From positions 1 through 61,471 of the forward strand of contig CASDOZ010000020.1 of the NCBI GenBank assembly GCA_949282265.1: a stretch of DNA of 61,471 nt. Direction: 5' to 3'. Position 1 is the stretch's first letter; each line of letters begins with the position of its first letter. Shown here piece by piece: positions 10,822 to 61,471 of this stretch. Below the pieces are notes generated by a model. The model worked only from the letters and a program-made list of their open reading frames with translations, was not told where the DNA came from and did no database searches. Source of the DNA: an uncultured Bacteroidales bacterium (lineage in GTDB: Bacteria; Bacteroidota; Bacteroidia; Bacteroidales; Paludibacteraceae). The translations under genes were made by a program, and so were the position numbers.

Positions 10822-10947
10822 AAAAAAGTGTATTTGGATTAAGGAATATAAGAAATGAATCTATCTACATATTTTTCATGGCCGGTTTTTCAAAGACAAA
10901 TCAATAATAACTATGTTGTAAGGACGCTACTATCCTTTTGATTTTTG

Positions 10948-10955
10948 CAAAGGTA
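10948..10955 (-). promoter_or_regulatory. -7 box for the GH29 operon
   Basis: The minus strand reads TACCTTTG, a full TAnnTTTG match. It implies a leader of about 120 nt before the ATG at 10821. Confidence 0.55.
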
Positions 10956-11090
10956 TAAAAAAACGAAAAATTAAGGTGTTAATATTTGTGTATAATGATT
11001 AAGGGGGCTTCAATTCGTGGTAAAATTATTCTTCCCAAAAGGAAAACTTGGACATCTTTGTTTTTTGGAAAAGTTTTTCCAAAACCAATT

Positions 11091-11837
11091 TTAAAAATTA
11101 ATAGTCAGCTCATTATCCGGTTTCGGCAAATCACTTTCCGGGGTCAGTTCTTTTTCACCCCTCCGGTAATAATAAATCAGTCCGTATTCTTTGCATTTGC
11201 AAAGTTTTTCATAAGGTTTGCAATCCTTGAAATGCTCCTCCACCTGGTTCCAAATATCCAGAATAATGGCATCGGCTTTTTCCCGCAGGCTGTTCAATTC
11301 TTCCCAATTACGGGCTGTCGCATTTTGATGGAATTTCTGCGTGGCCTGGTATTCCTTGAAAATCTCATAATGCACTTTGACCTTGGCAATAGTCGGATTA
11401 TAAATAGGCAAGCCTCCGCGCCGCAAACGCTCGTTTTCGCCATCAATAATGCACTTTCCCCATTTCAGCAACGCCGCTTCCGTCGATAAGTCCGGCAAAA
11501 CATGCACATTCGTGTCCAAACCGTAAAGTTCCTTGTATTCTTTCTTGATGTCTCCCCGGATAACGGCCAAATTGAATACCTGGATAAAATGCGAAATATA
11601 CATGTGGGCCTTGGCCATGATGTGTTTATAACGCCTGTTGGAAGCCACCTGATTCTCCAATGTTTGTTGGTATTGCTGTAAATGTTTCTCAAAAATGATC
11701 AAAAAACTTTTGGCTTCATTGAGTGTCTTGAAAGAAATGATCTGTTCCGTAAAGCTCGTTTCATTGGCTTTTTTTATGGCTCCGTTCAAGGCTCTGAAAC
11801 GGGCTTGGTCAGTATTTGGAAGACGGCGATAAGGCAT
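11091..11837 (-). CDS. Conserved hypothetical protein (Bacteroidales type)
   Basis: This 248-residue soluble protein starts MPYRRLPNTDQARFRALNGAIKKA. It is largely helical, without signal peptide or membrane segment, and contains many charged residues and a CKCKEYG segment near the C-terminus. I recognise it only as a conserved protein of Bacteroidales with no assigned function. It is monocistronic: a -7 box (TATCTTTG) lies at 11872-11865 in the 42-nt gap from the polyprenyl synthetase gene. Confidence 0.75.
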   Translation of the reverse strand: MPYRRLPNTDQARFRALNGAIKKANETSFTEQIISFKTLNEAKSFLIIFEKHLQQYQQTLENQVASNRRYKHIMAKAHMYISHFIQVFNLAVIRGDIKKEYKELYGLDTNVHVLPDLSTEAALLKWGKCIIDGENERLRRGGLPIYNPTIAKVKVHYEIFKEYQATQKFHQNATARNWEELNSLREKADAIILDIWNQVEEHFKDCKPYEKLCKCKEYGLIYYYRRGEKELTPESDLPKPDNELTINF

Positions 11838-11864
11838 GGCAACTCGATTTTAAGATTTTGCACG

Positions 11865-11872
11865 CAAAGATA
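11865..11872 (-). promoter_or_regulatory. -7 box for the 11091-11837 gene
   Basis: The minus strand reads TATCTTTG 28 nt before the ATG at 11837, giving a short leader. Confidence 0.55.
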
Positions 11873-11879
11873 AAAAAAT

Positions 11880-12851
11880 TTATTCATTCCGCAACATCAA
11901 CCGTTCCGCTAACGTTCTCAATTCATGTTTTTTAGCTTCTATAATATTGATTTTATCAAGATTTGCGACTGCTTTTTGGAAATAAATGTTCATGGCATCT
12001 TCGCATTTTTCGTTTATACGAAGCGTATTATAGATACCAGTAACGGCAGAAATTTTAGCGGCATTGTCCGTCGAATCGGCCAGCCAACGCTCTAATTCGC
12101 GTTTAGTCGCACCATCGGCGGTATTCAAAGCCGATATCAGCATATATGTCTTTTTGTTGCACAAAATATCGCCGCCAATCGCTTTGCCAAATGTCTTCTC
12201 ATCTCCATAAACATCCAAATAATCATCTTTCAGTTGGAATGCCAGACCGATATTAATACCGAATTGATACAGTTCTTCAATATCGGCTTGGGGAGCATCG
12301 GCCAGATCCGCCCCGACCTGCAACGCCATGCCCAGCAACACCGCCGTTTTCAGGCGGATCATTTCCATGTACTCCAGCACACTGACATTTTGCCGCATCT
12401 CAAACTCCATATCATATTGCTGGCCTTCACAAATTTCACAAGCTGTTTTCGAAAAAATATCCAACGTTGCTTTCAAATGGCGTTCGGGTACTTGCGCCAG
12501 CAATTTATAGGCCTCTATCAACATCGTGTCTCCTGACAAGATAGCCGTGTTGTCATTCCATTTGACATGTACAGTCGGCCGGCCACGGCGAATCGGCGCC
12601 TTGTCCATGATATCATCATGAAGCAGAGTAAAATTATGGAACACTTCCAAAGCCAAAGCCGCCGGCATTGCTTCCTTCAAATTGCCATTAAACATATCAT
12701 TGGCTAACAAAACCAAAGCAGGACGGATGCGTTTGCCACCCAAAGCCAGAATATAACCAATGGGCTCATACAACCCGACTGGCTTCCTGCTCCAATCCAG
12801 TTTGTTCAACTCTTCCGTGAACAGTGCTTGTATTTCCGCAAAAGTTTTCAT
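11880..12851 (-). CDS. Polyprenyl diphosphate synthase (trans-isoprenyl type)
   Basis: This 323-residue enzyme has the two aspartate-rich motifs of chain-elongating prenyltransferases, LLHDDIMD (FARM) and FQLKDDYLD (SARM), plus GGKRIRP for IPP binding. It condenses isopentenyl diphosphate with an allylic diphosphate to make farnesyl, geranylgeranyl or longer chains; product length cannot be fixed from these motifs alone. It overlaps the ddl stop by an ATGA junction, so ddl and this gene form an operon linking peptidoglycan precursor and lipid-carrier or quinone precursor supply. Confidence 0.93.
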   Translation of the reverse strand: MKTFAEIQALFTEELNKLDWSRKPVGLYEPIGYILALGGKRIRPALVLLANDMFNGNLKEAMPAALALEVFHNFTLLHDDIMDKAPIRRGRPTVHVKWNDNTAILSGDTMLIEAYKLLAQVPERHLKATLDIFSKTACEICEGQQYDMEFEMRQNVSVLEYMEMIRLKTAVLLGMALQVGADLADAPQADIEELYQFGINIGLAFQLKDDYLDVYGDEKTFGKAIGGDILCNKKTYMLISALNTADGATKRELERWLADSTDNAAKISAVTGIYNTLRINEKCEDAMNIYFQKAVANLDKINIIEAKKHELRTLAERLMLRNE

Positions 12852-47269: not shown

Positions 47270-50077
47270 ATGAAGAAAACACTGATACTGATAGCTTTTG
47301 CATTCATTATATCATGCAAGGGGCACAATGAAGATATATCTTATGCCAATCATATCAAGCAGATTGACAGCATCGTATCCGCCAACGACAATATAGAAGC
47401 CCTCGAAGGCCTTTTGTCCGGCTACGAGGCCAGCCGTGATGATGTGGGCAGGATGGCGGTAATGAGGGAACTCGGAAAAATCCATCGTGAATCTGCCAAT
47501 TTCAACTGCGCCCTGGACTATCATGAAAGAGCATTGTCGCTGGCCAAGTCACTGAAGGACACCGCCAATATCATCTATATACTGAACCAGCTCGGGACAG
47601 ACTTCAGGCGTCTTGGAATCCTGGATGAGGCAGCAGTCAGGCATTATGAGGCACTTTCCTACTGCGAAAAATACAGCGACCAGTCCTCGACCAGAGCTAA
47701 AAAGCACAAAGTAGTATCGCTCAATGGCATAGGAAATATCCAGCTCACTTTTCAGAACAACGATGCCGCAGAAAAAGTTTTCAGACAGGCTCTTGCCGGA
47801 GAGAAAAGTCTTGGAAGCCACATTGGGCAGGCCATCAACTACGCAAATATCGGCTATGTCAAAGAAGCCAATGGAGAAAAAGACTCGGCATGGATCTATT
47901 ACCAATATTCCATGGAGCAAAACCGTCTTGCCAACTCAAAGCTCGGCATATCATTGTGTTATAACCATTTCGGCCGGTTGGCAGAGCAGGAGGGCAATTA
48001 CAGCGAAGCGCTAGAATCATTCAAAAACTCCTATAAACTGATGACTGGGGACAAAGACAAATGGCACTGGTTGGAATCATGTCTTTCAATAGCGAAGGTC
48101 TATCTTGCAATGGAACAACCCGAAAATGCCCGCCGCTACCTCAACGAGGGGTTGAAAACATCAACGGAGATCAATTCATGGGAACATCTTGCTGAAGCAT
48201 ATCGTTTAAAGGCCGTATTTGAAGAAAAAACAGGCAATTACAAGGCATCGCTTGAAAATTACAGGAAATATCTGGCATATACCGACAGTGTGGACAACGA
48301 AAAAAACATCAACCATCTGAGCAATATTCGGGTGAATTATATAATGGAGAAAGGGAACAAGGAAAAAGAAGTTGTCAGCCAAGCATACATAAGCGAGCAA
48401 CAAAAAAAGAAGACAATCCTTTATTTACTCGTCATCGTCCTGCTTGTTTCAGCCGTAGCGATTTCGTCTCTCATTTATGCTTTGAGAGTCAAGGCCAAGA
48501 TGCAGAATATCATCAAAAAAGCAAGTCTTGCAAGACAAGAATTTTTCACCAATGTTACGCACGAATTCCGTACACCTCTCACCGTAATCCTCGGTTGCGC
48601 GGAAGAACTAAAATCAAAGGCCAGGAATAAGGAAACAGCAACAGAAATCGATGCCATTTCAAGGCAGGGGCAAAGGCTGCTGACTCTGGTGAACCAACTT
48701 TTGGATATAGCAAAGGTGCGATCGGCCATTGGCAAGGCCAACTGGAAAACCGGCAACATGACTGCCTTCATCCAAATGGTTGTAGAGAATATTCGCCCTC
48801 AAGCAATAAAGAGTCTCATCGAAATCGAATATTTCGCCAATGAAAAAGAGGCCGAAATAGATTTCGTGCCCGATTTCATGTGCAAGATTTTAACGAATAT
48901 TCTATCCAATGCACTAAAATTCACCCCCAAAGGAGGAAAGATAACCATTTGTAGCATGGTTGACAAGAAAGCCCTGATGATAAGTATTGAGGACACCGGT
49001 TGTGGCATCAAGCCGGAAAACCTGCCCCGTGTTTTCGAGCCTTTTTTCCAGGCCGAGTCGTATTCCGATGCCGGCACAGGCATAGGCCTGGCTTTGACAA
49101 AACAGATGACCGAGGCCATGGGCGGCAGTATTAAAGTTTCCAGCAGGCCGGGAGAAGGCACCACGTTCGTCTTGTCTATTCCGACAAGACACGGAGAGAA
49201 TAAGCTTGAAAGATGGATTCCCGATTTCGAAGCGAAGGCAACCTGCAACGAAGCGCCGGCCTACGATGACACCGAGGAAATTGCCAACCACGACGAGATC
49301 ATATCGAAAGAGGCGGACATCGCCCTCGTGGTTGAAGACAACGAAGACATAGCACGCTACATCGGGAACATCATCAAAGACAACTTCTCCGTCGTCTATG
49401 CGCGCAACGGCAAGGAGGGAATCATCAAAGCGGAAGAATATGTCCCGGATGTCATCATCACAGACATCATGATGCCCGAATACGATGGCCTGGAGATGAC
49501 ACGCGACATTCGGAAATCCGAGCTCCTCAATCACATACCAATCATCATCGTCACGGCAAAAAGCGATGACGCGCACAAGTTGCAAGGCCTTGACTGCGGA
49601 GCCGATGCCTATCTGATAAAGCCGTTCAGTCCCGATGAACTGAAAATGCGGATCCACAAACTGGTCGAATACCGCAGTTTGCTCAGAAAGAAATACAGCC
49701 AGATACTAACTGAGGGAGGAGAGATTTCAAAAGAACAGGATGCTCCGGAATTGGAGAAAAAATTCCTCGTCAAGCTCAACAGTTTCATATCTTCCAACAT
49801 CTCCCTTTCCAATCTGAACTCCGAAATGCTGGCAGACAACATGTGCTTAAGCAAGTCACAGCTCAACCGGAAAGTAAAGTCCATAACAGGAATAAATACA
49901 GCTGCATACATCAAGCAATCAAAACTGGTCCATGCCCAGCTCCTTCTGAGAGACCCGGGAAATACAATCGGGGACATCGTCTTGATGTGCGGTTTTGAAT
50001 CCGCAAGTTATTTCACCAAACAGTTCAGGGAAAAATTTGGCATGACACCATCCCAATACAGGAAAGAGAACTCCTGA
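47270..50077 (+). CDS. Hybrid two-component regulator: TPR sensor, histidine kinase, receiver, AraC
   Basis: This 935-residue protein has an N-terminal lipobox-like signal (FAFIISCKG) and TPR repeats over about residues 60-335. One membrane helix follows at about 382-405, then HisKA with His431 in VTHEFRTPLT, HATPase with NALKFTPKGG and TGIGLAL, a receiver domain with phospho-acceptor Asp732 (IITDIMMPEYDG) and Lys784, and a C-terminal AraC-type HTH (about 835-930, CGFESASYFTKQFREKFG). Sensor, kinase, receiver and DNA binding thus lie in one chain, as in Bacteroidales hybrid systems, but with TPRs rather than a beta-propeller sensor. It probably controls the following secreted-protein gene. 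Confidence 0.93.
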   Translation: MKKTLILIAFAFIISCKGHNEDISYANHIKQIDSIVSANDNIEALEGLLSGYEASRDDVGRMAVMRELGKIHRESANFNCALDYHERALSLAKSLKDTANIIYILNQLGTDFRRLGILDEAAVRHYEALSYCEKYSDQSSTRAKKHKVVSLNGIGNIQLTFQNNDAAEKVFRQALAGEKSLGSHIGQAINYANIGYVKEANGEKDSAWIYYQYSMEQNRLANSKLGISLCYNHFGRLAEQEGNYSEALESFKNSYKLMTGDKDKWHWLESCLSIAKVYLAMEQPENARRYLNEGLKTSTEINSWEHLAEAYRLKAVFEEKTGNYKASLENYRKYLAYTDSVDNEKNINHLSNIRVNYIMEKGNKEKEVVSQAYISEQQKKKTILYLLVIVLLVSAVAISSLIYALRVKAKMQNIIKKASLARQEFFTNVTHEFRTPLTVILGCAEELKSKARNKETATEIDAISRQGQRLLTLVNQLLDIAKVRSAIGKANWKTGNMTAFIQMVVENIRPQAIKSLIEIEYFANEKEAEIDFVPDFMCKILTNILSNALKFTPKGGKITICSMVDKKALMISIEDTGCGIKPENLPRVFEPFFQAESYSDAGTGIGLALTKQMTEAMGGSIKVSSRPGEGTTFVLSIPTRHGENKLERWIPDFEAKATCNEAPAYDDTEEIANHDEIISKEADIALVVEDNEDIARYIGNIIKDNFSVVYARNGKEGIIKAEEYVPDVIITDIMMPEYDGLEMTRDIRKSELLNHIPIIIVTAKSDDAHKLQGLDCGADAYLIKPFSPDELKMRIHKLVEYRSLLRKKYSQILTEGGEISKEQDAPELEKKFLVKLNSFISSNISLSNLNSEMLADNMCLSKSQLNRKVKSITGINTAAYIKQSKLVHAQLLLRDPGNTIGDIVLMCGFESASYFTKQFREKFGMTPSQYRKENS

Positions 50078-50104
50078 TTCCTGGATTTCAGGAATTGTAA
50101 ACCC

Positions 50105-50149
50105 ACATGCCGGATAAAATTCTATTAAACAGAATCTTATCCGGCATGT
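50105..50149 (+). terminator. Long hairpin after the hybrid regulator gene
   Basis: ACATGCCGGATAA and TTATCCGGCATGT pair perfectly, with an inner ATTCT/AGAAT pairing. It lies 28 nt after the regulator stop and immediately before the conserved upstream element. The T tract is short (TTT after one base). Confidence 0.55.
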
Positions 50150-50150
50150 T

Positions 50151-50260
50151 TGCGTCATGTGTTATAATTGGCGTAGTGTTATTCGCTCCAGACTTACCAT
50201 TTTCATCTCCATTATGCGTTGTATGTTCTAACAAGTTTATCTGCCATCCGTTTACTTTGC
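50151..50260 (+). promoter_or_regulatory. Conserved 110-bp upstream element, copy A
   Basis: This element aligns without gaps to 55810-55919 upstream of the first bspA-like gene, 88 of 110 positions identical. It holds the related half-sites TGTTATAAT and TGTTCTAAC 64 bp apart and ends in TTACTTTG, a variant -7 box. The sequences after it diverge. A shared operator and promoter is the simplest reading. Confidence 0.7.
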
Positions 50261-50363
50261 AACTACGATTGAACACTTATATCGGATACCAGAACTTGAT
50301 GTGTAAGAACCATGCGTTAAGCTAACAATAATCCCTAATTTTAATCCTTAAACAAAAAACGAG

Positions 50364-51884
50364 ATGGAAACAAAAAGATTTAGAAGAAGTGTGCTGATGG
50401 CGACAATGTTGCTTGCCACAAGTATAGTAGCCGAAGCACAAATCGGTAAAAGCCTCATCGACAGGGCAAAAAATGCAACAACGACAAGAACAACCATGGC
50501 AGCCGACCGTGCAATAAACGATGGTCTTGACAAGGTGTTCGAAAACGACAAGACCAAGCAGGCAACCAATGCCAATGCACTGCAAAATGCCAGCGAACAA
50601 TCGGCAGCCGCCGTCACCAACGGCAACATCTATTATGTGAACCTTGAAAGAGGTAGCGCCAGGGCGGCCGGTACAAAAGAAGCTCCGATGAAAGATATTC
50701 AGAAAGCCATTGACATGGCAGCCGACGGCGACCTCATCCGTATTGCACAAGGCAACTATCTCGGCAACCTGGACAGAGGCTGGATTGAAATAAAGGGCAA
50801 ATATGTAAGCCTCGAAGGTGGGTGGAACGATGACTTCAGCGAACGAAATCCGGTCAAGTACATCACACGCATACAGCCTACCGTAGATCAGAGAGGCACT
50901 ATCGGACAAGGTTTGCTCATGATTGATGCCACCGCAAAAAGAAATGCTCAAATCATCATCGACGGCATATTCTTCGACCTCGGTCTCGTACATGAATACG
51001 CCAAGGCCGACCCGACCGACGCACGCTTCGGATGTCCCGAAGGCTGCGAAACGGGACGCATTATGCCGGTGGGCAACCCGCCCAACAAGACTATCCGTCT
51101 TATCGGTGGAAAAATGGCAGGCAAACTCGTTATCCGCAACTGCATGTTCCTCAACGCCTCGTTCAATGCCATTATCATGACCAACATGGGCGGTGCGTGG
51201 GAAATTTACAACAACGTATTTGTGGCCAACCTCTACGCAGCCTGCGAAATCAACGGAGGTTTGAACCAAAACACCGGGGCACACCAATCCACTGTGGACT
51301 TCCACCACAACACTGTATTGTTCTCCTGGCCCACCACCAAGGAAATGGAAAGCATGGGCTACGGCTACCGCTTCAAAAACAGCGTTGACCACAATGTCCA
51401 CCACAACATTTTCGGTTGCAACAATTTCGGAGCATTGGACGGTGGATGGGACGATTCCAACTTGCCGGCTGACAAACGCAAAATCTGTTCGGCTTACGAC
51501 AACCTCTTCTTCATGAACAAGGGCGACTTTGTTATGGCCGGAACAAGCGGCGGCAAATGGCTTTACGTACCGGGCAAACGCTTCGACGAAGTGGAAATGC
51601 TTACCAAGTATGAAAACAACAGGGAGCTGCCTTCAACCAGCAAATTCAAGGATGTAATCGACCAGCCTTACCTCAAGGGATATGCTTCACTCGAAATCAT
51701 CACAACGGAAAGCTATGACCCCAACTCGGCAGCCAACCTTTACAGAGAAGCACACGGCTTGAACAAGCAGGGCACCATGACCACACGCGTATCCATGTTC
51801 GGCAACCGCTACAACTTCGACAAGGCCGTGCAGTTGTTCGGGGCAGAACCCGAATACGGCGCACAGCTGCCAGCCGGCAATTGA
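50364..51884 (+). CDS. Secreted right-handed beta-helix protein
   Basis: This 506-residue protein has a signal peptide (MLLATSIVAEAQ), a low-complexity Ala/Thr/Asn-rich segment (residues 30-85) and then a parallel beta-helix domain of the DUF1565/PbH1 type. Examples are GTKEAPMKDIQKAIDMAADG, RIAQGNYLG, LVIRNCMFLNASFNAIIMTN and WEIYNNVFVANL. Such folds occur in polysaccharide lyases and adhesins, but I see no lyase active-site signature. It follows the hybrid regulator and has the conserved 110-bp element upstream, so it is a probable target of that regulator. Confidence 0.78.
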   Translation: METKRFRRSVLMATMLLATSIVAEAQIGKSLIDRAKNATTTRTTMAADRAINDGLDKVFENDKTKQATNANALQNASEQSAAAVTNGNIYYVNLERGSARAAGTKEAPMKDIQKAIDMAADGDLIRIAQGNYLGNLDRGWIEIKGKYVSLEGGWNDDFSERNPVKYITRIQPTVDQRGTIGQGLLMIDATAKRNAQIIIDGIFFDLGLVHEYAKADPTDARFGCPEGCETGRIMPVGNPPNKTIRLIGGKMAGKLVIRNCMFLNASFNAIIMTNMGGAWEIYNNVFVANLYAACEINGGLNQNTGAHQSTVDFHHNTVLFSWPTTKEMESMGYGYRFKNSVDHNVHHNIFGCNNFGALDGGWDDSNLPADKRKICSAYDNLFFMNKGDFVMAGTSGGKWLYVPGKRFDEVEMLTKYENNRELPSTSKFKDVIDQPYLKGYASLEIITTESYDPNSAANLYREAHGLNKQGTMTTRVSMFGNRYNFDKAVQLFGAEPEYGAQLPAGN

Positions 51885-51970
51885 CAAGAAGGAACACAAG
51901 CATATAAATTTTGTGAATTATACGAATCCTCTGGTTGGGATATGTTTGTTTGTCTGTGAGAACTCTTCTT

Positions 51971-51996
51971 TAGCCCCTCCCCCAAAGGGAGGGCTA
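51971..51996. repeat. GC-rich imperfect hairpin
   Basis: TAGCCCCTCCC and GGGAGGGCTA pair with one bulged C. It lies between the beta-helix and TMEM43-family genes and could act as a terminator or be a dispersed intergenic repeat. Confidence 0.45.
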
Positions 51997-52063
51997 AGAA
52001 GGGTTTGATAGCGAACGGATGCTGCATTCCAACTCCCGATTCATAGAATAAAAAAATTAGTAT

Positions 52064-53296
52064 ATGGCATATCAAGAAACAAAAAACATATCCTATGGCA
52101 CGCGGGTGTCCAACTCGGTAAAAGGCATCGGTACGGGATTCATGATGCTGTTGGCCGCAACCATTATGTTGTGGTGGAACGAAGGGCGTGCCGTAAAGAC
52201 CACAAAAATGCTCAATGAAGCAGAAAAGGTCACCGTGCATGTGGAAGACGTGTCAGAAGCGGACCCGTCCTTAAACGGCAAGCTGATTCATGCAACAGCT
52301 TTCACCCACACGGACGATTCCCTCTGTGACAGAAATTTCGGCATAGGAGCCGTGGCTGTCAAACTGGAACGGGAAGTGCAATATTACCAATGGGTGGAAT
52401 ACAAGGAGACAGAAACGAAGGACAAAATTGGAGGAAGCCAGGAAGAAGTGACCACCTACACCTACAAACAGGAATGGGTAGGAGCTCCGGTCGATTCACG
52501 GGAGTTCAAGGACCCGGCCTACCAACAATCGAATTTTATCGTCATGAACGTGGAAGACAAATGCTATGTGGCCGACAATGTAACGTTCGGTGCATACCGG
52601 CTGCCGAAAAACCTGATTCACGCCATTTCCGGGAATATTCCCGTGGAGTTGGATTTCAGCAAAGAGCAGATTGAAAACTGGAACAAGGATGTCAAGACTA
52701 TCTTTGAGAGCAAGGCAAGCAACCAAACAGACTCGCTGGCTAAGCCGGAGGCCGCTTATGTCCACGTAAACGGAAACGTGCTTTATTTCGGCAAGCAACC
52801 GAACAGCCCGCACATCGGTGACATGTCCATTACCTTTACGAAAGTATTGCCGGGAGAGGCATCAGTCATTGCCGAGGTAAACGGAACCAACCTGAGGCCC
52901 TTTGTGGCAAAAAACGGCAAGGAGTTTTCCGCGTTGACTATGGGAACAGCAAGCATGGAAGAAATGTACCAAAGCGAACACACAATAAACAAAAACATAA
53001 CCTGGATATTGCGTATCGCAGGACTGCTGCTGGTCATCTTGGGGCTGAAAGGCATTTTCAGTATCTTGACAACCTTGTTGAAGGTGTTGCCCTTCCTGGC
53101 CAATATTGCCGAACTGGGTGTCAACTTGGTGTGCAGTGTGTTAGGGTTGGTATGGTCACTTCTTGTCATTGCTTTGGCATGGCTGTTCTATCGGCCTGTC
53201 ATTGCAGGGGTGTTGTTGGTTGTAATTATTGCGCTCGTTGTTTTCCTTGTAAGAAAGGGAAAGAGCGAGAAGCATACAGAGGAGACTGTTGTTTAA
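52064..53296 (+). CDS. TMEM43 family membrane protein
   Basis: This 410-residue protein has one membrane helix near the N-terminus (about residues 24-43) followed by the TMEM43 motif LWWNEGRAVKTTKML. A large extracytoplasmic domain spans about 45-310, and three to four hydrophobic segments lie at the C-terminus. Bacterial members of this family have no established biochemical role. The architecture matches the eukaryotic LUMA/TMEM43 proteins. It has an ATG at 52064 and no close partner gene. Confidence 0.85.
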   Translation: MAYQETKNISYGTRVSNSVKGIGTGFMMLLAATIMLWWNEGRAVKTTKMLNEAEKVTVHVEDVSEADPSLNGKLIHATAFTHTDDSLCDRNFGIGAVAVKLEREVQYYQWVEYKETETKDKIGGSQEEVTTYTYKQEWVGAPVDSREFKDPAYQQSNFIVMNVEDKCYVADNVTFGAYRLPKNLIHAISGNIPVELDFSKEQIENWNKDVKTIFESKASNQTDSLAKPEAAYVHVNGNVLYFGKQPNSPHIGDMSITFTKVLPGEASVIAEVNGTNLRPFVAKNGKEFSALTMGTASMEEMYQSEHTINKNITWILRIAGLLLVILGLKGIFSILTTLLKVLPFLANIAELGVNLVCSVLGLVWSLLVIALAWLFYRPVIAGVLLVVIIALVVFLVRKGKSEKHTEETVV

Positions 53297-53414
53297 CAAA
53301 GCATCTTTCATACGCCCTTCCTTTTCTGATATTCATTGGATATAGGACAGGGTTGTGAGATTTGTCAAAACACACATTATCATTCGCGACCATCTTGTCG
53401 GTACAGACATGCAG

Positions 53415-53453
53415 AGGGGTTGTGTCAAAATGAACCATTTTGACGCAGCCCCT
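53415..53453 (+). terminator. 18-bp hairpin after the TMEM43-family gene
   Basis: AGGGGTTGTGTCAAAATG pairs with CATTTTGACGCAGCCCCT around a 3-nt loop, with two G-U pairs. TGTCAAAAT occurs once more 10 nt later. It may terminate transcription; the repeat also resembles ends of some insertion sequences, but no transposase is present. Confidence 0.55.
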
Positions 53454-53543
53454 TTAAGGTATGTCAAAATATGTAAGATAAATTCCAGCACACATTCTTT
53501 AATATAACAGATAATTACTATTTTTGCGTTTGATGCAATAAAA

Positions 53544-53603
53544 ATGGCAGAAACCATGAAAGATTTGAATCCTATTGAAGTAGTTCTCATAGAAAATGAA
53601 TAG
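53544..53603 (+). pseudogene. Remnant of an HTH regulator gene upstream of the ATP-binding protein gene
   Basis: A 19-codon frame, MAETMKDLNPIEVVLIENE, is preceded by a good -7 box (TATTTTTG, 53519-53526). It matches the N-terminus of small HTH regulators of Bacteroidales that begin with a KDLNxIKVVLVE pattern and are often found beside ATP-binding AlbA-domain proteins (from memory). The helix-turn-helix part is missing. Degraded sequence continues to 53690. Confidence 0.45.
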
Positions 53604-53679
53604 AATATGTGGATATGGGCGACTTATTGGCTCATGAGATTGAAACATCGCTTCGATGAGGGTGTAAGGAATAGGATAG

Positions 53680-53687
53680 TATATTTG
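53680..53687 (+). promoter_or_regulatory. -7 box for the AlbA/Schlafen-type gene
   Basis: TATATTTG lies 24 nt before ATG 53711. No clear -33 TTG is seen. Confidence 0.45.
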
Positions 53688-53710
53688 TAATTGATTAGAA
53701 ATTCTTGAAT

Positions 53711-55456
53711 ATGAAGAAATACACGATAGAAGAGTTACGGCTTCAACGAGAGTCAGAAGATCATGTTGAGTTTAAGGAAGCTGAGAATGGGAATTTCTCG
53801 TACAATGGGGCAAGCAAAACAGAACCTAAAGATCGCAGAAAATGTATTTTAGGATATGTTGTTGCATTATGTAATGAAAAAGGTGGACGACTGGTGTTGG
53901 GAATGCATGATGCGTATCCACATGCAGTTGTCGGCACAACTCAATCATTGAATGAAATCGGAATATTAGAAAGTAAAATCTATAAGGATTTGGGAATTCG
54001 TCCAATGATTTATGAACTTTATGACGAAAACAGGAAAAGAGTCTTGGTTATAGAAGTTCCACCTCGTCCAACAGGGAAATTATATAAATTTGAAGACGTT
54101 CCATTAATGCGAGTTGGTGAAGAGCTCAAACCAATGGATGATAAAACCTATATCTCTATCATTCAAGAACAAGAGCCTGACTTTTCAGAAAGTATTTGTG
54201 ATAAAGCCACATTTAACGATTTGGATTTAGAAGCTATCGAAATTCTTAAAGAAAAATATTCAATCAAACAGAAAAACCCTTCTTTCGCTTCGTTATCTCC
54301 TTTCCAAGCTCTAAGTGATTTAGGATTGATTAAAGAAGGAAAGGTAACTAATGCCGCAGTTTTGCTTGTCGGAAAAGAAGATGTCTTAAATAAGATTTTT
54401 CCACAAGCCAAAGTAATGCTTGAATTTAGAAGAACAGAAGGACAAATAGAATTTAATAATAGGAAAGAGTTTGGGCAACCTTTCTATAAACTAATTGATT
54501 TAGTTTGGGCTGAAATAAATGAAAAGAATGGATCTTTCCCTGTTAGGGAAGGTGCCTATATTTTTGACATCCCTTATTTCAATGAAGATGTTATAAGAGA
54601 AATCATAAACAATGCTTTTGCACACCGTGACTATAGACGTAATAGTGAAATAGTTATTAAATTATATCCTACCAGGTTGGATATAATCAATGCTGGTGGA
54701 TTTCCTCAAGGAGTTTCATTGGAAAATCTTTTGACTGTGCCAAGTACTCCAAGAAATCGTCTTTTAGCAGATGTCTTGTCAAAAACTGGTATCGTAGAAC
54801 GTTCCGGCCAAGGAATGGACAAAATTTTCTTATATACCCTTGCGGAGGGTAAACCGGAACCCGATTATTCTAAATCTGACGACTTTGATGTTACCGCCAT
54901 TTTATCAGCTTTAGTGAAAGACGCCAGTTTTGCTCTTTTTGTACAAACTATTCAGCGTGATTTACCAGACAATGAAAAGCTGACTGTTTTTGATGTCATC
55001 GAGATGTGTAAAATTAGAGATGGTCAACATAAAAATATCGATAAGAATATTGCCAAAAGACTAGAAGAAAAGAATTGTATTGAAAAGCACGGTAAAACCA
55101 ATGCTCAGTTCTATACTCTTGCTAGGCATTATTATGAAGTTGCCGGTAAAACTGCCGATTATTCTAAGCTTGTAGATTGGACGGCCACTCAGGTTCTTGC
55201 CGTATTAGCTCCATATCTTGAAAAATATGGTAAAGCTAAAAAATCAGATATATTAAAAATTGTGGGTGATCATATCACGGATAAGCAATTAAGAAACTTT
55301 TTAGACCAATTAAAAAAGTCCGAACTAATAAAGACAGAAGGAGAAAGAGGAAAAATGGTTTATATGCTTGGTGAGAAATATAAAAAACAAAATGATATTA
55401 TTGCTAAAGCTTTAAACATTGGACTAAAAGCTCTTGAAGAAAATGGAGAACTATAA
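53711..55456 (+). CDS. ATP-binding protein with N-terminal AlbA_2/Schlafen domain
   Basis: This 581-residue protein has an N-terminal AlbA_2 (Schlafen-type) domain with EDHVEFKEAENG and CNEKGGRLVLGMHD. A middle GHKL-like ATP-binding half follows (FNEDVIREIINNAFAHRDYRRNSEIVIKLYP, then GFPQGV and VERSGQGMDKIF) and a C-terminal winged-helix-like region. Members of this family are scattered and often linked to HTH regulators or defence islands; function is not established here. The base composition is clearly more AT-rich than its neighbours, suggesting transfer. ATG 53711 is preferred over TTG 53705. The frame continues for 37 codons past the stop. Confidence 0.85.
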   Translation: MKKYTIEELRLQRESEDHVEFKEAENGNFSYNGASKTEPKDRRKCILGYVVALCNEKGGRLVLGMHDAYPHAVVGTTQSLNEIGILESKIYKDLGIRPMIYELYDENRKRVLVIEVPPRPTGKLYKFEDVPLMRVGEELKPMDDKTYISIIQEQEPDFSESICDKATFNDLDLEAIEILKEKYSIKQKNPSFASLSPFQALSDLGLIKEGKVTNAAVLLVGKEDVLNKIFPQAKVMLEFRRTEGQIEFNNRKEFGQPFYKLIDLVWAEINEKNGSFPVREGAYIFDIPYFNEDVIREIINNAFAHRDYRRNSEIVIKLYPTRLDIINAGGFPQGVSLENLLTVPSTPRNRLLADVLSKTGIVERSGQGMDKIFLYTLAEGKPEPDYSKSDDFDVTAILSALVKDASFALFVQTIQRDLPDNEKLTVFDVIEMCKIRDGQHKNIDKNIAKRLEEKNCIEKHGKTNAQFYTLARHYYEVAGKTADYSKLVDWTATQVLAVLAPYLEKYGKAKKSDILKIVGDHITDKQLRNFLDQLKKSELIKTEGERGKMVYMLGEKYKKQNDIIAKALNIGLKALEENGEL

Positions 55457-55809
55457 GTTAGTAAAGGGCGAATAAAAGGGCAAATAGTTACAGATAAACA
55501 AGCAAATTACAACTATAAACACCTGAAAATCAACAATACAGAAGGGCAAATAAAAGGGCGAATAAAATGAAACATAAAACCATAGAGGTAATAGATAGCC
55601 CCCACTCAACACATATAATTCGCTAAAATATAGTTCCCCCGTCATCCCGCACTTGCTGCGAACTCCAGGCGTTTTGCTTCTTGCGTGGCATATACCCCCC
55701 CCTCAAAAACAAGCATAAAGAGCTGAAAAAACCGTACAGCTGTCCTTCCCGATTTGTAAATTTATTCCATATACAAAACATTGTATATCAATTTCTTAGT
55801 ATGCTCTCG
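55457..55809. other. Intergenic region with repeats and an in-frame extension
   Basis: After the TAA, the same frame stays open to TGA 55568-55570 and reads KGRIKGQI near its start and EGQIKGRIK at its end, matching a pair of direct DNA repeats. Further right there is a C-run (7 C) near 55692 and an inverted repeat ATATACAA/TTGTATAT at 55769-55776/55781-55788. No gene is seen between 55571 and 55809. Confidence 0.5.
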
Positions 55810-55919
55810 TGCGCCGTATGTTATAATACTCATAGTGTAATTTGCTCCAGGCTGACCATTTTCAGCTGCATTATGCGTTGCACGTTCTAACAAGATAAGC
55901 GGCAATCCGTTTTCTTTGT
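55810..55919 (+). promoter_or_regulatory. Conserved 110-bp upstream element, copy B
   Basis: This is the partner of 50151-50260 (88/110 identical, no gaps). It has half-sites TGTTATAAT at 55819-55827 and CGTTCTAAC at 55883-55891 with the same 64-bp spacing as copy A, and ends in TTTCTTTG, the same -7 variant. It lies 81 nt before the bspA-like ATG. Confidence 0.7.
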
Positions 55920-56000
55920 ATTAGCAAGCAAACAGAAACCAACCGCAGCACCAGCTGCCAACAAATAACAACAGTACAAACCCCTAAAAAACAAAACAGT

Positions 56001-56315
56001 ATGAAAAAGACATTATTTACTCTCATTGTTGCCCTCTTGGCCGCCACAGGCGCATGGGCACAAACCACATTCACCGACAATGGCCTGAAATACACGGTTA
56101 CCGACGCAACCACAGTGGAACTGACCGGCTATGAGACCGCACCGACGGGTGCGCTCACCATTCCCGCCACCGTAACCAACGGCGGCACGATCTACAGCGT
56201 GACCAGCATCGGATACGAGGCATTTAGTAATTGCAAGGCACTTACGTCAGTCTCGGAGCATGGTCATTCTACGGCTGCGAGGCACTGGAACAGGCAAGCC
56301 TGCCCGAAAGTCTGA
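56001..56315 (+). CDS. BspA-like LRR surface protein, N-terminal part of a frameshifted gene
   Basis: The 104-codon frame has a signal peptide (MKKTLFTLIVALLAATGAWAQ) and the module start GLKYTVTDATTVELTGYETA to IYSVTSIGYEAFSNCKALTSV. It then leaves the repeat pattern, which resumes in another frame from 56231. The repeat cysteine spacing across the junction is 44 nt instead of 69 nt, so 25 nt are missing relative to one repeat. The natural gene would span 56001-60271 as one protein of about 1,420 residues. Confidence 0.75.
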   Translation: MKKTLFTLIVALLAATGAWAQTTFTDNGLKYTVTDATTVELTGYETAPTGALTIPATVTNGGTIYSVTSIGYEAFSNCKALTSVSEHGHSTAARHWNRQACPKV

Positions 56316-59300
56316 CAACCATTGAGGAAATGGTGTTCAGCACCTGTACTTTCCTCGCACAGGTAAACATTCCCAAGCATGTGACAAGCATGGGCAGAGG
56401 TGTATTCCAAAACACCGCCCTTACGCAAGTAACCTTGCCCGAAAGCCTGACAAGCGTTGCGGCAGATCTATTCTTCCACTGTTCTTCCCTGACGCAAGTG
56501 AACCTTCCCAATACCATAACAAGCATTGAACAAGCGGCATTCTACGATTGCGCCTTACTCACGCAAATCACCCTGCCCGAAAGCCTGACAAGAATTGGAG
56601 AGAGTGCTTTCTATTCCTGTAGCGCCCTCACACAAATCACCCTGCCCGGCAACGTCACGAACATAGAAAAGTCGGTCTTCGCCCAATGTAGCGCACTCAC
56701 CCAAGTCAATCTGCACGAAAATGTAAGAAACATTGGTGCGGCTGCGTTCTCCGGTTGCACCTTGCTTACACAAATCAACATCCCCGAAGGCCTAAGAAGC
56801 ATCGGAACGGAGGCATTCATGAACTGCACCCGTCTTAAGCAAATCACGATACCCGGCCAGGTGACACAGATTGAAGACTATACATTTTCCGGTTGTTCCG
56901 CCCTCACGAAAATCACCATACCCGCCAATGTGACAAACATTGGAAACTATGCCTTCAGCAACTGTACCGCCCTTACGGAAATGACCGTACTTGCCAACTT
57001 ACCGCCTTATTTGGGAGAAAATACGTTTGAGAATGTCAACCGCAGCATTCCCGTATATGTACGCACAACGTCCTTGACGAATTATCAGGGGATGAACATT
57101 TGGAGAGATTTCGACCTGCAAGCACTGGAACCGGCCTTCACTGTCGATTATCTGAAATACATCGTAACAGACGAAAACACAGTGGAACTGAACGGCTATG
57201 AAACCGGATTGGCAGGAGAAGTGAACATACCCGCCACCGTGGAATATGAAGGCACGGCATACAGTGTGACCAGCATTTCAAGCAATGCGCTCACCTTCTG
57301 TTCCACCATCACAAAAGTGACCCTGCCCGAAAGCCTGACATACATCGGCATGTCGGCGTTCAGTTACTGCTCAGAACTTACGGAAGTGAATATCGGCAAC
57401 GGCGTGACCACCATCGATTTCAATGCCTTCCGCGACTGCAGCGCCCTTACAACCGTGACCTTGGGCAGCGGCCTGACAAGCATTGGAGGAGATGCGTTCT
57501 ACGGCTGTACGTCACTCACGCAATTCAACATATCCGAAAACGTGAACAGCATCGGAAACGGTGCGTTTGCCAAATGTACCGCCCTCACGCACATCAATGT
57601 GGACGAAGGCAACACCACCTATTGCTCCGACAGCGGCGTGTTGTTCAACAAGAACAAAACCACGCTGCTGCAATATCCTGCCAGAAAGCCGGAAACCACC
57701 TATGCCGTTCCCGCCGGCGTGAACACCATTGAAAGGAATGCGTTTGCCCATAGCACGGCACTCAAGCAAGTGACCCTGCCCGAAAGCCTGACCAGAATAG
57801 CGGAACAGGCCTTTATGGAATGTCCGGCACTCACCACCGTGACCCTGCCCGACAAGCTGGCACGCATTGAAAACTACGTATTCGCCAATTGCTCCACCCT
57901 CGCGCAAATCAACCTGCCCGAAAGCCTGACATATATTGGATTTTCGGCGTTTGAAAACTGCTCCGCGCTCACACAAGTAGTCTTTCCGGCAAGCGTGGAT
58001 ACCATTGAAAACCATTCCTTCAGCGGCTGCAATGCGCTCGCAAAGATGACCGTACTGGCCGTCCAACCGCCTTTTGTGTGGGAAAGCACATTTAATGGCA
58101 TCGGCAATGACATACCCGTATATGTACTCTCCGACGCCCTGTCAAGCTACCAGTCAGCAACAGTGTGGGCAGGCTTCAACCTGCAAGCCTACGAATTGCC
58201 TGTATTCACAGTGGGAAACCTGAAATACACCGTAATAAGCCCGACCTCCACCCATGTGGAAGTGAGCGGCTATGAAACCGCACTGGCAGGAGAAGTGAAC
58301 ATACCCGCCACTGTGGAATATGAAGGCACGACCTACAACGTGACCAGCATCAGAGGCAATGCGTTCAACAGCTGCAACACACTTACGGCAGTGAACATTG
58401 CCGAAGGCGTAAACGATATCGGGGCCTATGCGTTCGCCTATTGTTCCGCACTCACACAAGTGAACCTGCCCGCCAGCGTGGCACGCATTGGAGGGGAGGC
58501 GTTCTGCGGCAGTACCGCCCTCACGCAAATCAATGTAAACGAAATGAATACGGCCTATTGCTCCGAAAACGGTGTATTGTTCAACAAGGACAAAACCACG
58601 CTGCTGCAATATCCTGCCGGCAAGGCGGAAACCGCCTATGTAGTTCCCGACGGCGTGAACACCATTGAAAGGAATGCGTTTGCCCGTAGCACGGCACTCT
58701 CACAAGTGACCCTGCCCGACGGCGTAACCAGAGTAGAGGAACAGGCCTTTATGGAATGTCAGGCACTCACCACCGTGAACCTGCCCAACAGCCTGGCACG
58801 CATTGAAAACTCCGTATTTGCCAACTGCTCCGCCCTCGCGCAAATCACCCTGCCCGAAAGCCTGACATACATTGGAAACTCGGCGTTCTCCTATTGCACG
58901 TCACTCACACAAGTGACCATACCGGCAAGAGTTGATACCATTGGAGACTATGCCTTCAGCAACTGCAATGCACTCACAGGAATGACCGTATTGGCCATCA
59001 GGCCGCCCCTTGTGTGGGAAAACACATTTTTTGGCATCGGCAATGACATGCCCGTGTATGTACCGGCAACAGCATTGGGCAACTACCAGGCGGCAGAAGT
59101 ATGGAAAGAGTTCATCAACCTGCAAAGCTTTGACCTGAGCGAATTCACCGTCAATAACCTTATCTACACCGTGACCAGCGCCACCACAAACACGGTGAAG
59201 CTGACCGGCTATGACACCGCGCCGACGAACGTGCTGGACATTCCTGCCACCGTTAGCTATGCGGGCAAGGAATACCATGTCACGGGCATCGGAAACAACG

Positions 59301-60271
59301 CGTTCAGCAACTGCGGCGCACTTACGACAGTGAACATTGCCGAAGGCGTAAACAATATCGGAGAGTTTGTATTCGAACATTGCGACGCACTCACAACCGT
59401 GAACATACCCGCAAGCCTGACAAGCATTGGAGTATATGCGTTCAGCGGTTGCGGAGCTCTCACGCACATCAATGTGGACGGAATGAACGCGGCTTATAGT
59501 TCTGAAAACGGCATCCTGTTCAACAAGAACAAAACCACGCTGCTGCAATATCCTGCCGGCAAGCCGGAAACCGACTATGTCGTACCCGCGAGTGTGACGG
59601 CCATTGAAGAAAGAGCATTTTTCAGCTGCACCTCCCTCACGCAAATAACCCTGCCTAACGGACTGACAAGCATTGGAGCAGGGGCGTTCTATAGTTGCAC
59701 CGCCCTCACGGAAATGAACATTCCTGAAGGCGTGACAAGCATTGGAGCAGAGGCGTTCTATAGTTGCACTGCCCTCATGGAAATAAACATTCCTGAAGGC
59801 GTGACAAGCATTGAATCAGGGGCATTCTATAGTTGCACCTCCCTCATGGCAATAACCCTCCACGAGGGTGTGGCAAACATCAACTACAATGCGTTCAGCG
59901 AATGTAGCGCACTCGCGCAAATGACCGTGCTCGCCACCACACCGCCCGTGGTAGAAGGCAAGGCATTTTATAACGTCAACCGTAACATACCTGTGTATGT
60001 GCCTGCGTCAGCATTCACCGGCTATCTGACAGCAGCCGTTTGGAATGAATTCAACCTGAAAGCCATAGGCACCACCGGCCTGCCAACGGCAGTTATGCCG
60101 GAGAGCATACGCATTTATAACGGCACGCTGCACAACCCGCAACAACTGCACCTGACCCTCTACGACATGCAGGGACGCCAGGTGTATAGCGGCACCGCCG
60201 CCACCGTAAGCCAGCCCGCAGGCGTGTATGTAGTGCGTTGCAACGGCGCCAGCGGCAAGGTGCTGTTCTGA
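56231..60271 (+). CDS. BspA-like LRR_5 surface protein, main part
   Basis: This 1346-codon frame has many 23-residue BspA-type LRR_5 repeats (CxALTxVxLPxSLTxIGxxAF pattern). Counting the N-terminal piece, it forms four large modules. Each begins with a LKYTVT...GYETA...IPATV header and ends with a DIPVYVPxxxLxxYQxxxVW footer. The last 60 residues (IRIYNGTLHNPQQLHLTLYDMQ onward to PAGVYVVRCN) resemble a type A sorting domain. BspA-like proteins bind host proteins or other bacteria in oral species; binding here is unproven. The ATG at 56231 is probably not a natural start. Confidence 0.82.
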   Translation: MQGTYVSLGAWSFYGCEALEQASLPESLTTIEEMVFSTCTFLAQVNIPKHVTSMGRGVFQNTALTQVTLPESLTSVAADLFFHCSSLTQVNLPNTITSIEQAAFYDCALLTQITLPESLTRIGESAFYSCSALTQITLPGNVTNIEKSVFAQCSALTQVNLHENVRNIGAAAFSGCTLLTQINIPEGLRSIGTEAFMNCTRLKQITIPGQVTQIEDYTFSGCSALTKITIPANVTNIGNYAFSNCTALTEMTVLANLPPYLGENTFENVNRSIPVYVRTTSLTNYQGMNIWRDFDLQALEPAFTVDYLKYIVTDENTVELNGYETGLAGEVNIPATVEYEGTAYSVTSISSNALTFCSTITKVTLPESLTYIGMSAFSYCSELTEVNIGNGVTTIDFNAFRDCSALTTVTLGSGLTSIGGDAFYGCTSLTQFNISENVNSIGNGAFAKCTALTHINVDEGNTTYCSDSGVLFNKNKTTLLQYPARKPETTYAVPAGVNTIERNAFAHSTALKQVTLPESLTRIAEQAFMECPALTTVTLPDKLARIENYVFANCSTLAQINLPESLTYIGFSAFENCSALTQVVFPASVDTIENHSFSGCNALAKMTVLAVQPPFVWESTFNGIGNDIPVYVLSDALSSYQSATVWAGFNLQAYELPVFTVGNLKYTVISPTSTHVEVSGYETALAGEVNIPATVEYEGTTYNVTSIRGNAFNSCNTLTAVNIAEGVNDIGAYAFAYCSALTQVNLPASVARIGGEAFCGSTALTQINVNEMNTAYCSENGVLFNKDKTTLLQYPAGKAETAYVVPDGVNTIERNAFARSTALSQVTLPDGVTRVEEQAFMECQALTTVNLPNSLARIENSVFANCSALAQITLPESLTYIGNSAFSYCTSLTQVTIPARVDTIGDYAFSNCNALTGMTVLAIRPPLVWENTFFGIGNDMPVYVPATALGNYQAAEVWKEFINLQSFDLSEFTVNNLIYTVTSATTNTVKLTGYDTAPTNVLDIPATVSYAGKEYHVTGIGNNAFSNCGALTTVNIAEGVNNIGEFVFEHCDALTTVNIPASLTSIGVYAFSGCGALTHINVDGMNAAYSSENGILFNKNKTTLLQYPAGKPETDYVVPASVTAIEERAFFSCTSLTQITLPNGLTSIGAGAFYSCTALTEMNIPEGVTSIGAEAFYSCTALMEINIPEGVTSIESGAFYSCTSLMAITLHEGVANINYNAFSECSALAQMTVLATTPPVVEGKAFYNVNRNIPVYVPASAFTGYLTAAVWNEFNLKAIGTTGLPTAVMPESIRIYNGTLHNPQQLHLTLYDMQGRQVYSGTAATVSQPAGVYVVRCNGASGKVLF

Positions 60272-60285
60272 AACCTTTCGGAAAG

Positions 60286-60318
60286 GACACCCGCAACCGC
60301 CATCGGGTTGCGGGCATG
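60286..60318 (+). terminator. GC-rich hairpin after the first BspA-like gene
   Basis: CCCGCAACC/GGTTGCGGG form 9 bp at 60290-60298/60306-60314, and GGACA/TGTCC just outside extend the stem past a small bulge. No T tract follows, so it may be a processing or partial termination site. Confidence 0.5.
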
Positions 60319-60394
60319 TCCCTGACCCAGTAAGGCAAACAACAGCGGCGAAAGCCGCAAAAAACAAATTATAAACCACAAAATTCAAAGAATT

Positions 60395-61471
60395 ATGAAA
60401 AAGAAATTGTTAACATTAGCAGTTGCCCTCTTGGCCGCCACAGGCGCATGGGCACAGGAATTTACGTTTGATAACCTGAAATACACGGTTACCGACGCGG
60501 AAGCCAAAACCGTGGAACTCACCGGCTATGTAACCGCACCGGAAGGCGCGCTCACCATTCCCGCCACCGTAACCAACGAGAGCACGGAATACAGCGTGAC
60601 CAGCATCGGCAGCTATGCGTTCTCCGGCTGCGCTTCCCTTACGGCAGTGACCATACCCGCCAGCGTGACTAATATCGGCAGCAGGGCGTTCTCACGGTGC
60701 CCTCGACTTACGGCAGTGACCATACCCGAGGGAGTAGCTACCATCGGAAGTTACGCATTCGAAAGGTGCTCCTCCCTCACGGCAGTGACCATACCCGCCA
60801 GCGCAATTAACATTGGCGTTTGGGTGTTCGACTATTGCTCCGCCCTGACAGCCATCCATGTGGCCGAAGACAACACTGCCTACAGTTCGGAGGACGGCGT
60901 CCTGTTCAATAAGGACAAAACCAAATTGGTGTGCTATCCTATCGGCAAGCCGGAAACTACCTATACCGTTCCTGCCACAGTGACAACCTTTACAACCTCG
61001 GCCTTTGAAAACTGCACCGCCCTTGCACAAATAAACCTCCCCAACAGCCTGACTGACATGGCGAGTAGGACATTCTACGGCTGCACCTCCCTTACGGAAG
61101 TGACCCTGCCTGATGGTGTGACACAACTTATGGGCTCTAACTTCACCGATTGCTCCGCCCTTGAAAAAGTGACCCTGCCCGAGGGCATAACATATATTGG
61201 CAACGGAGCATTTAAAAATTGCTCCGCCCTTACGGAGCTGACCGTGCTTGCCACCACTCCGCCGACATTGAGAACCGACGTATTCCTGAATGTCAGCCGC
61301 GACATACCCGTATATGTGCCCGCCGCATCGCTGGCAACCTACCAGGCAGCTGACGTATGGAGTGAATTCAATCTGCAAGCCATAAGCACTACCGGCCTGC
61401 AAACACCGGCCATGCCGGAGAGCATAGCTGTATATGATGGAATGCTCCACAATCCGCAAGCCCTTGAAGTG
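60395..61471 (+). CDS. BspA-like LRR surface protein, paralog, truncated by the window end
   Basis: The frame is open from ATG 60395 through all 359 codons to the window edge. It has a signal peptide (MKKKLLTLAVALLAATGAWA) nearly identical to the preceding gene, one module header (FDNLKYTVTDAEAKTVELTGY), about ten LRR_5 repeats, a DIPVYVPAASLATYQAADVW footer and the beginning of the C-terminal domain (MPESIAVYDGMLHNPQALEV). So it is a one-module version of the larger neighbour, intact as far as seen. No conserved 110-bp element lies upstream; it may be cotranscribed with the gene before it. Confidence 0.85.
   Translation, partial: MKKKLLTLAVALLAATGAWAQEFTFDNLKYTVTDAEAKTVELTGYVTAPEGALTIPATVTNESTEYSVTSIGSYAFSGCASLTAVTIPASVTNIGSRAFSRCPRLTAVTIPEGVATIGSYAFERCSSLTAVTIPASAINIGVWVFDYCSALTAIHVAEDNTAYSSEDGVLFNKDKTKLVCYPIGKPETTYTVPATVTTFTTSAFENCTALAQINLPNSLTDMASRTFYGCTSLTEVTLPDGVTQLMGSNFTDCSALEKVTLPEGITYIGNGAFKNCSALTELTVLATTPPTLRTDVFLNVSRDIPVYVPAASLATYQAADVWSEFNLQAISTTGLQTPAMPESIAVYDGMLHNPQALEV

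Follow-up and report, generated by a model that had tools for sequence, protein, structure and literature searches.

Why do two neighboring surface-protein genes share a stretch of upstream DNA, and what reads it? The window analyzed here comprises 61,471 nucleotides from an uncultured Bacteroidales bacterium, and positions 50151–50260 (copy 1) and 55810–55919 (copy 2) of its forward strand had been reported to align without gaps at 88 of 110 positions. Recomputation gave the same identity, and the next-best ungapped plus-strand match of copy 1 in the window reaches 49 of 110. The genome search with the 110-bp element proposed in the initial annotation covered 2.47 Mb of an 89% complete genome and returned two full copies only, these same two, the second at E = 2.7e-23, both before surface-protein genes. 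Copy 1 precedes the beta-helix gene and copy 2 the BspA-like gene, in agreement with the annotated downstream open reading frames. Within the window the copies diverge on both sides, as first described; in a genome of the same genus (G001), however, the BspA-side copy matches window copy 1 at 79.5% over 171 bp, extending to the left through a hairpin. The window copies thus align over 110 bp, but the module is longer in relatives.

The core of the element is a 17-bp site with the consensus TGCGYYGYAYGTTMTAA, which is directly repeated as sites A and B in each window copy and is also present in loci with diverged spacers. In copy 1, site A (TGCGTCATGTGTTATAA) lies at 50151–50167 and site B (TGCGTTGTATGTTCTAA) at 50215–50231, over the expected −33 place; in copy 2, site A (TGCGCCGTATGTTATAA) is found at 55810–55826 and site B (TGCGTTGCACGTTCTAA) at 55874–55890, all on the plus strand. 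The half-sites of type GTTNTAA that had been noticed 64 bp apart are present in both copies (GTTATAA and GTTCTAA at 50161 and 50225, and at 55820 and 55884), although GTTNTAA is not the unit itself and makes up only the right half of the 17-bp repeat. The variant −7 boxes were found as well, TTACTTTG at 50252–50259 and TTTCTTTG at 55911–55918 on the plus strand, each 20 bp past site B. The −33 place of both window copies is occupied by site B and contains no TTTG. Inside a single window element, the best 17-mer repeats have 13 and 12 matches, values reached by 16 and 45 of 300 shuffles, respectively. The A/B repeat is hence not significant within one element, and the case rests on comparison between loci.

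For this comparison, we used 16 elements from the window, from eight further loci (L048–L055, four of them contigs of G001, G057, G058 and G076) and from G091 (L044). A distance of 63–65 bp separates sites A and B in 15 of 16 elements. The exception is G091, where three tandem copies of the 17-bp sequence lie next to the regulator gene, with an outer site distance of 55 bp (34 + 21). The end of site B and the −7-like octamer are separated by exactly 20 bp in every element, and all 16 are oriented toward the downstream gene. Averaged over all pairs of eight non-redundant elements, identity is 76% for site A, 80% for site B and 82% for the −7 box; it is 49–64% for the spacers and the middle region and 56% between site B and the −7 box. 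The left flank, where the hairpin lies, has 69% and the right flank 32%. Sites in L051 and L052 match at 14 of 17 positions.

Furthermore, the spacer may hold the remains of another site. At offset +33 most elements show a TGCTCC-like start, and the best spacer score falls at +32 or +33 in 8 of 15 elements. In four of the 15 (L049 copy 1, L050, and L053 copies 1 and 3) a middle site beats shuffles at 0.05 or better, with 11.9 bits in L050 and L053 copy 1 (1 of 1000 shuffles), and in G091 it lies at +34, intact except for the last base. The corresponding plus-strand positions of the window, 50183–50200 and 55842–55859, are degenerate, and their spacer scores are not significant. The middle site may reasonably be regarded as a degenerate or decayed third site, perhaps an ancestral one.

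At the left boundary of copy 1, directly beside site A, the window contains a terminator-like hairpin (50106–50148, plus strand; fold z −6.5). Of the 16 elements, 12 have a hairpin of at least 17 pairs at this position; the remaining four form at most 8 pairs (the second copies in the window, in L055 and in L049) or 12 pairs (G091). The gene preceding the hairpin varies and may be the regulator, a TMEM43 or a BspA-type gene. An alignment of 10 sequences, which included the decayed window copy 2, showed changes on both sides in 10 of 18 stem pairs; stem cells pair at 91.1% vs 36.7–48.3% in slid controls, and the covariation score was reached by none of 500 shuffles. A hairpin pattern allowing up to three mismatches found six places in G000, G001, G058 and G748, each counted on both strands and all at elements, with a reversed control of zero; the pattern misses the third G748 hairpin and the decayed copy-2 hairpins. 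We infer that the hairpin is a terminator. A TTGTAAA-like word precedes it at 50095–50101 of the window and in relatives, and 15 of 16 elements have GTAAA ahead of the hairpin position. In an Rfam scan of the window, the threshold was reached by a tRNA elsewhere only. An attC-like or otherwise folded single-strand element was considered and rejected because the fold is no better than that of shuffles (z 0.24 to 2.11).

The genes behind the elements differ. Window copy 1 is followed by a secreted beta-helix-type protein of 506 amino acids (50364–51884, plus strand), which shows weak DUF1565 similarity below cut-off and an NCBIfam surface-protein match far below cut-off, and then by a TMEM43-family gene (52064–53296, plus strand; Pfam E = 4.4e-73) that probably shares its transcription unit. 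A TMEM43-like open reading frame is also found downstream in L049, L053, L054 and L055, as judged by N-terminal sequence, Pfam having been applied to the window gene only. Window copy 2 is followed by two plus-strand genes for BspA-type LRR_5 proteins, known from the open reading frame list and Pfam, at 56001–60271 and at 60395–61471, where the second runs off the window end; no element was found directly upstream of this second gene. Copy 2 of L049 and of L055 likewise precedes LRR_5 genes, and L053 has one of its three elements upstream of a beta-helix-type gene and the other two upstream of LRR_5 genes. The G091 sites are followed by a 50-aa open reading frame and an LRR_4 lipoprotein-like gene, those of L051 by a protein that has an outer-membrane barrel domain and matches OmpA-like sequences weakly, and those of L052 by a protein of the L051 type, as judged by its identical start. 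One BspA-type protein has a T9SS sorting-domain match below cutoff. From one genome to another the targets thus vary, but from their sequences they look like envelope or surface proteins, and the geometry of the element is the same before these differing genes. Among the seven window open reading frames scanned from 47270 to 61471, no susC/susD-like gene was present, so the locus does not have the gene content of a PUL.

Next to copy 1 lies the gene of a hybrid two-component regulator (47270–50077, plus strand). Its 935 residues contain, by Pfam, a TPR sensor, HisKA, HATPase, a receiver and an AraC-type HTH_18 domain (residues 854–932); sensor, histidine kinase, receiver and AraC-type domain are hence combined in one protein, as in the HTCS class. 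The alignment showed the kinase histidine and the receiver aspartate motifs. The DNA-binding domain is 78–98% identical in nine site-carrying relatives, and the segment LSKSQLNRKVK in its first helix-turn-helix is invariant in 10 of 10 proteins, window included; in two homologs from G007 the domain is 32–34% identical. The receiver reads NHIP in the window and in the nine relatives and departs from the S/C-HIP motif. According to PMC11253607, S or C occupies the first position in about 84% of HTCSs, which is not a strict rule, and the receiver of most HTCSs holds the DNA-binding domain back before phosphorylation, a behavior linked there to S/C-HIP. With NHIP, such a restraint is possible but not assured.

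Element and regulator occur in the same genomes. At E ≤ 1e-15 the element was found in 5 of 300 family genomes, with nine copies in total, and 17 further genomes gave short, weak matches only (E 0.006–0.05). Regulator orthologs of at least 75% identity are present in six genomes, namely the five element carriers and G091, which has three intact sites beside the regulator. A seventh genome, G007, contains two regulator homologs at 39–40% identity; their loci (L046, L047) were scanned and showed other repeats and no equivalent paired site. A relaxed pair pattern found eight true pairs (in G000, G001, G058 and G076) and two unrelated matches in 358 family genomes, with none in the reversed control, and, besides G000 and G001, one unrelated match in 393 order genomes, with two in the control. 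The G057 element escapes this pattern because its site A starts with TACG. Single sites with at most one mismatch numbered 25 in ten regulator-carrying genomes, 23 of them at the regulator locus and two elsewhere (G058 contig 15, G057 contig 94), against five in the reversed control; among these ten, the genomes of L051 and L052 gave no site within one mismatch. Elsewhere in G000, five places match at two mismatches, four of them covered by open reading frames of at least 90 amino acids. All five were rejected as targets, as within 120 bp they have no second site above 12 of 17. The three-mismatch pattern in G000 did no better than its control (94 vs 124). The regulon hence looks restricted to the regulator locus. 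Because the carriers are relatives of one another, the element is physically linked to the regulator and L048–L055 were found through the regulator, these co-occurrences represent few independent events.

Taken together, it is quite probable that the 110-bp copies are operator-promoters of the adjacent hybrid regulator and form a local surface-protein regulon, where binding and regulation are deduced from sequence. The shared operator beside an AraC-type hybrid regulator, as the initial annotation had put it, is supported by co-occurrence, confinement of the sites, fixed geometry and the conserved DNA-binding domain. The proposed surface-protein regulon also stands as a reading, in the narrower form of a regulon at the regulator locus. 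One 17-bp site, in which TGCG and GTTMTAA lie one helical turn apart, would suit a single AraC-type domain, which has two helix-turn-helix motifs. We may thus envisage that the TPR sensor, once triggered, lets the kinase phosphorylate the receiver, and that the DNA-binding domains would then bind to site B, which covers the −33 place and ends 20 bp short of the −7 box, and also to site A, some six turns farther upstream on that DNA face. The bound regulator could recruit RNA polymerase to a promoter that has no TTTG −33 box, so that the beta-helix/TMEM43 genes and the BspA genes would be switched on together, while the hairpin would stop transcription arriving from the upstream gene. By analogy with AraC-type activators in general, site B on a −33 place without TTTG is the layout to be expected of an activator-dependent promoter. 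Dependence on phosphorylation, activation and the role of the proteins are presumptive in this scheme.

Comparison with described systems assigns the module to a known type of switch, unusual in its site spacing and in its targets. In the cited papers, hybrid regulators are described as glycan sensors for polysaccharide loci. Direct repeats have been predicted as the motifs of 16 of 36 HTCSs of B. thetaiotaomicron, with an average distance of 21 bp (PMC3878776). The elements resemble these predicted operators as a two-site direct repeat on one DNA face near genes neighboring an HTCS with an AraC-type domain. In contrast, their spacing is not about 21 bp but 63–65 bp, sometimes with a third site, and only G091, with 34 + 21 bp, includes such a distance. 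Moreover, the HTCSs analyzed in that paper sit with susC/susD-like genes, and their sensors are mostly COG3292, whereas the sites here precede surface-protein genes and the sensor is TPR. SusR operators are direct repeats as well; their two sites share one DNA face and are separated by six or seven helical turns, at 67 or 77 bp according to the same source, distances that our 63–65 bp do not equal. SusR, however, is presented there as a membrane regulator with a DNA-binding domain said to be unlike any other known, in contrast to the hybrid kinase with AraC domain of this locus. The −7-like boxes are related to TAnnTTTG, the −7 consensus of Bacteroides sigma-ABfr promoters (PMC7366714), but read TTACTTTG and TTTCTTTG, and site B takes the place of the TTTG that this paper puts near −33. 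In the passages cited from these papers, the site spacing seen here is undescribed for the HTCS class, and none of the titles listed in our literature search mentions an HTCS regulon of such surface proteins, which at title level is no proof of absence. The hybrid regulator seems to be reserved for envelope proteins, among them BspA-like and beta-helix ones. Since the 17-bp site is exact, its distance to the promoter fixed and the set of targets small, binding and spacing rules become directly testable.

We may speculate further, with more doubt than conviction, that the TPR-sensor hybrid regulators of this clade work with a portable module, made of the hairpin, an originally three-site array over about six helical turns and a promoter without −33 box, that is copied before whichever surface protein joins the locus and whose long-spaced sites act via a loop or higher-order assembly. 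If true, this would be a self-contained surface-protein switch, unlike the 21-bp dimer sites of the HTCS class.

Alternatively, the operator could be real but read by another regulator, for example a SusR-like or AraC-type protein encoded elsewhere. The spacing of 63–65 bp is indeed nearer to the 67 or 77 bp of SusR than to the 21 bp of HTCSs (PMC3878776), and the regulator frame of L053 is split. We consider this improbable, as element and hybrid regulator co-occur and adjoin, and near-exact sites are confined to the regulator locus. Considerably less probable still is a duplicated promoter region that has been kept by descent or gene exchange and has no dedicated regulator. Exchange does occur: copy 2 is 99–100% identical over 109 bp in three other genomes (L006, L009, L010), across genera, which may reflect exchange or else an element conserved unusually strongly over its full length, and between 54966–55740 of the window and a genome of another genus (G058; L033) identity is 99.0%, which suggests recent exchange. 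The G001 copies share the hairpin too; both flanks of copy 2 differ in that genome. Yet in diverged loci the sites and the −7 box outlast the spacers, the geometry is fixed while the downstream genes are unrelated, and the three sites of G091 are kept in a different arrangement. A mobile repeat, an attC-like recombination site or an invertible promoter, which the 5.7-kb block between two direct copies and the long inverted repeat beside most copies might suggest, is scarcely credible, given that a mobile repeat at random places, named beforehand as the case that would speak against an operator, was looked for and not seen, that the genome holds two copies and not copies at many unrelated places, that the pair pattern occurs off-locus only in two unrelated matches among the 358 family and one among the 393 order genomes, that copy 1 gave no plasmid match and copy 2 no phage match (one copy per database), and that all 16 elements point at their downstream gene.

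The operator-promoter module of a local HTCS regulon for surface proteins is hence the most likely reading, and some observations on the locus and its relatives may be added. The first BspA-type gene after copy 2 consists of two overlapping frames (56001–56315 and 56231–60271), and a same-genus genome has one long open reading frame at this position (L031 4095–8459); the split may be due to an assembly error, mutation or phase variation. A Schlafen/AlbA-type gene lies between TMEM43 and copy 2 (53705–55740) and is absent from the same-genus locus. In L053, where the regulator is split into two open reading frames (9944–12808), three elements are kept. Finally, in G007 (L046 2749–3825 and 4819–4895) a 40% regulator homolog is found close to a divergent LRR gene that has a T9SS tail. 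In the gap before this homolog a 23-bp sequence is repeated directly and exactly, 54 bp apart, which may be a like design that uses a different site.
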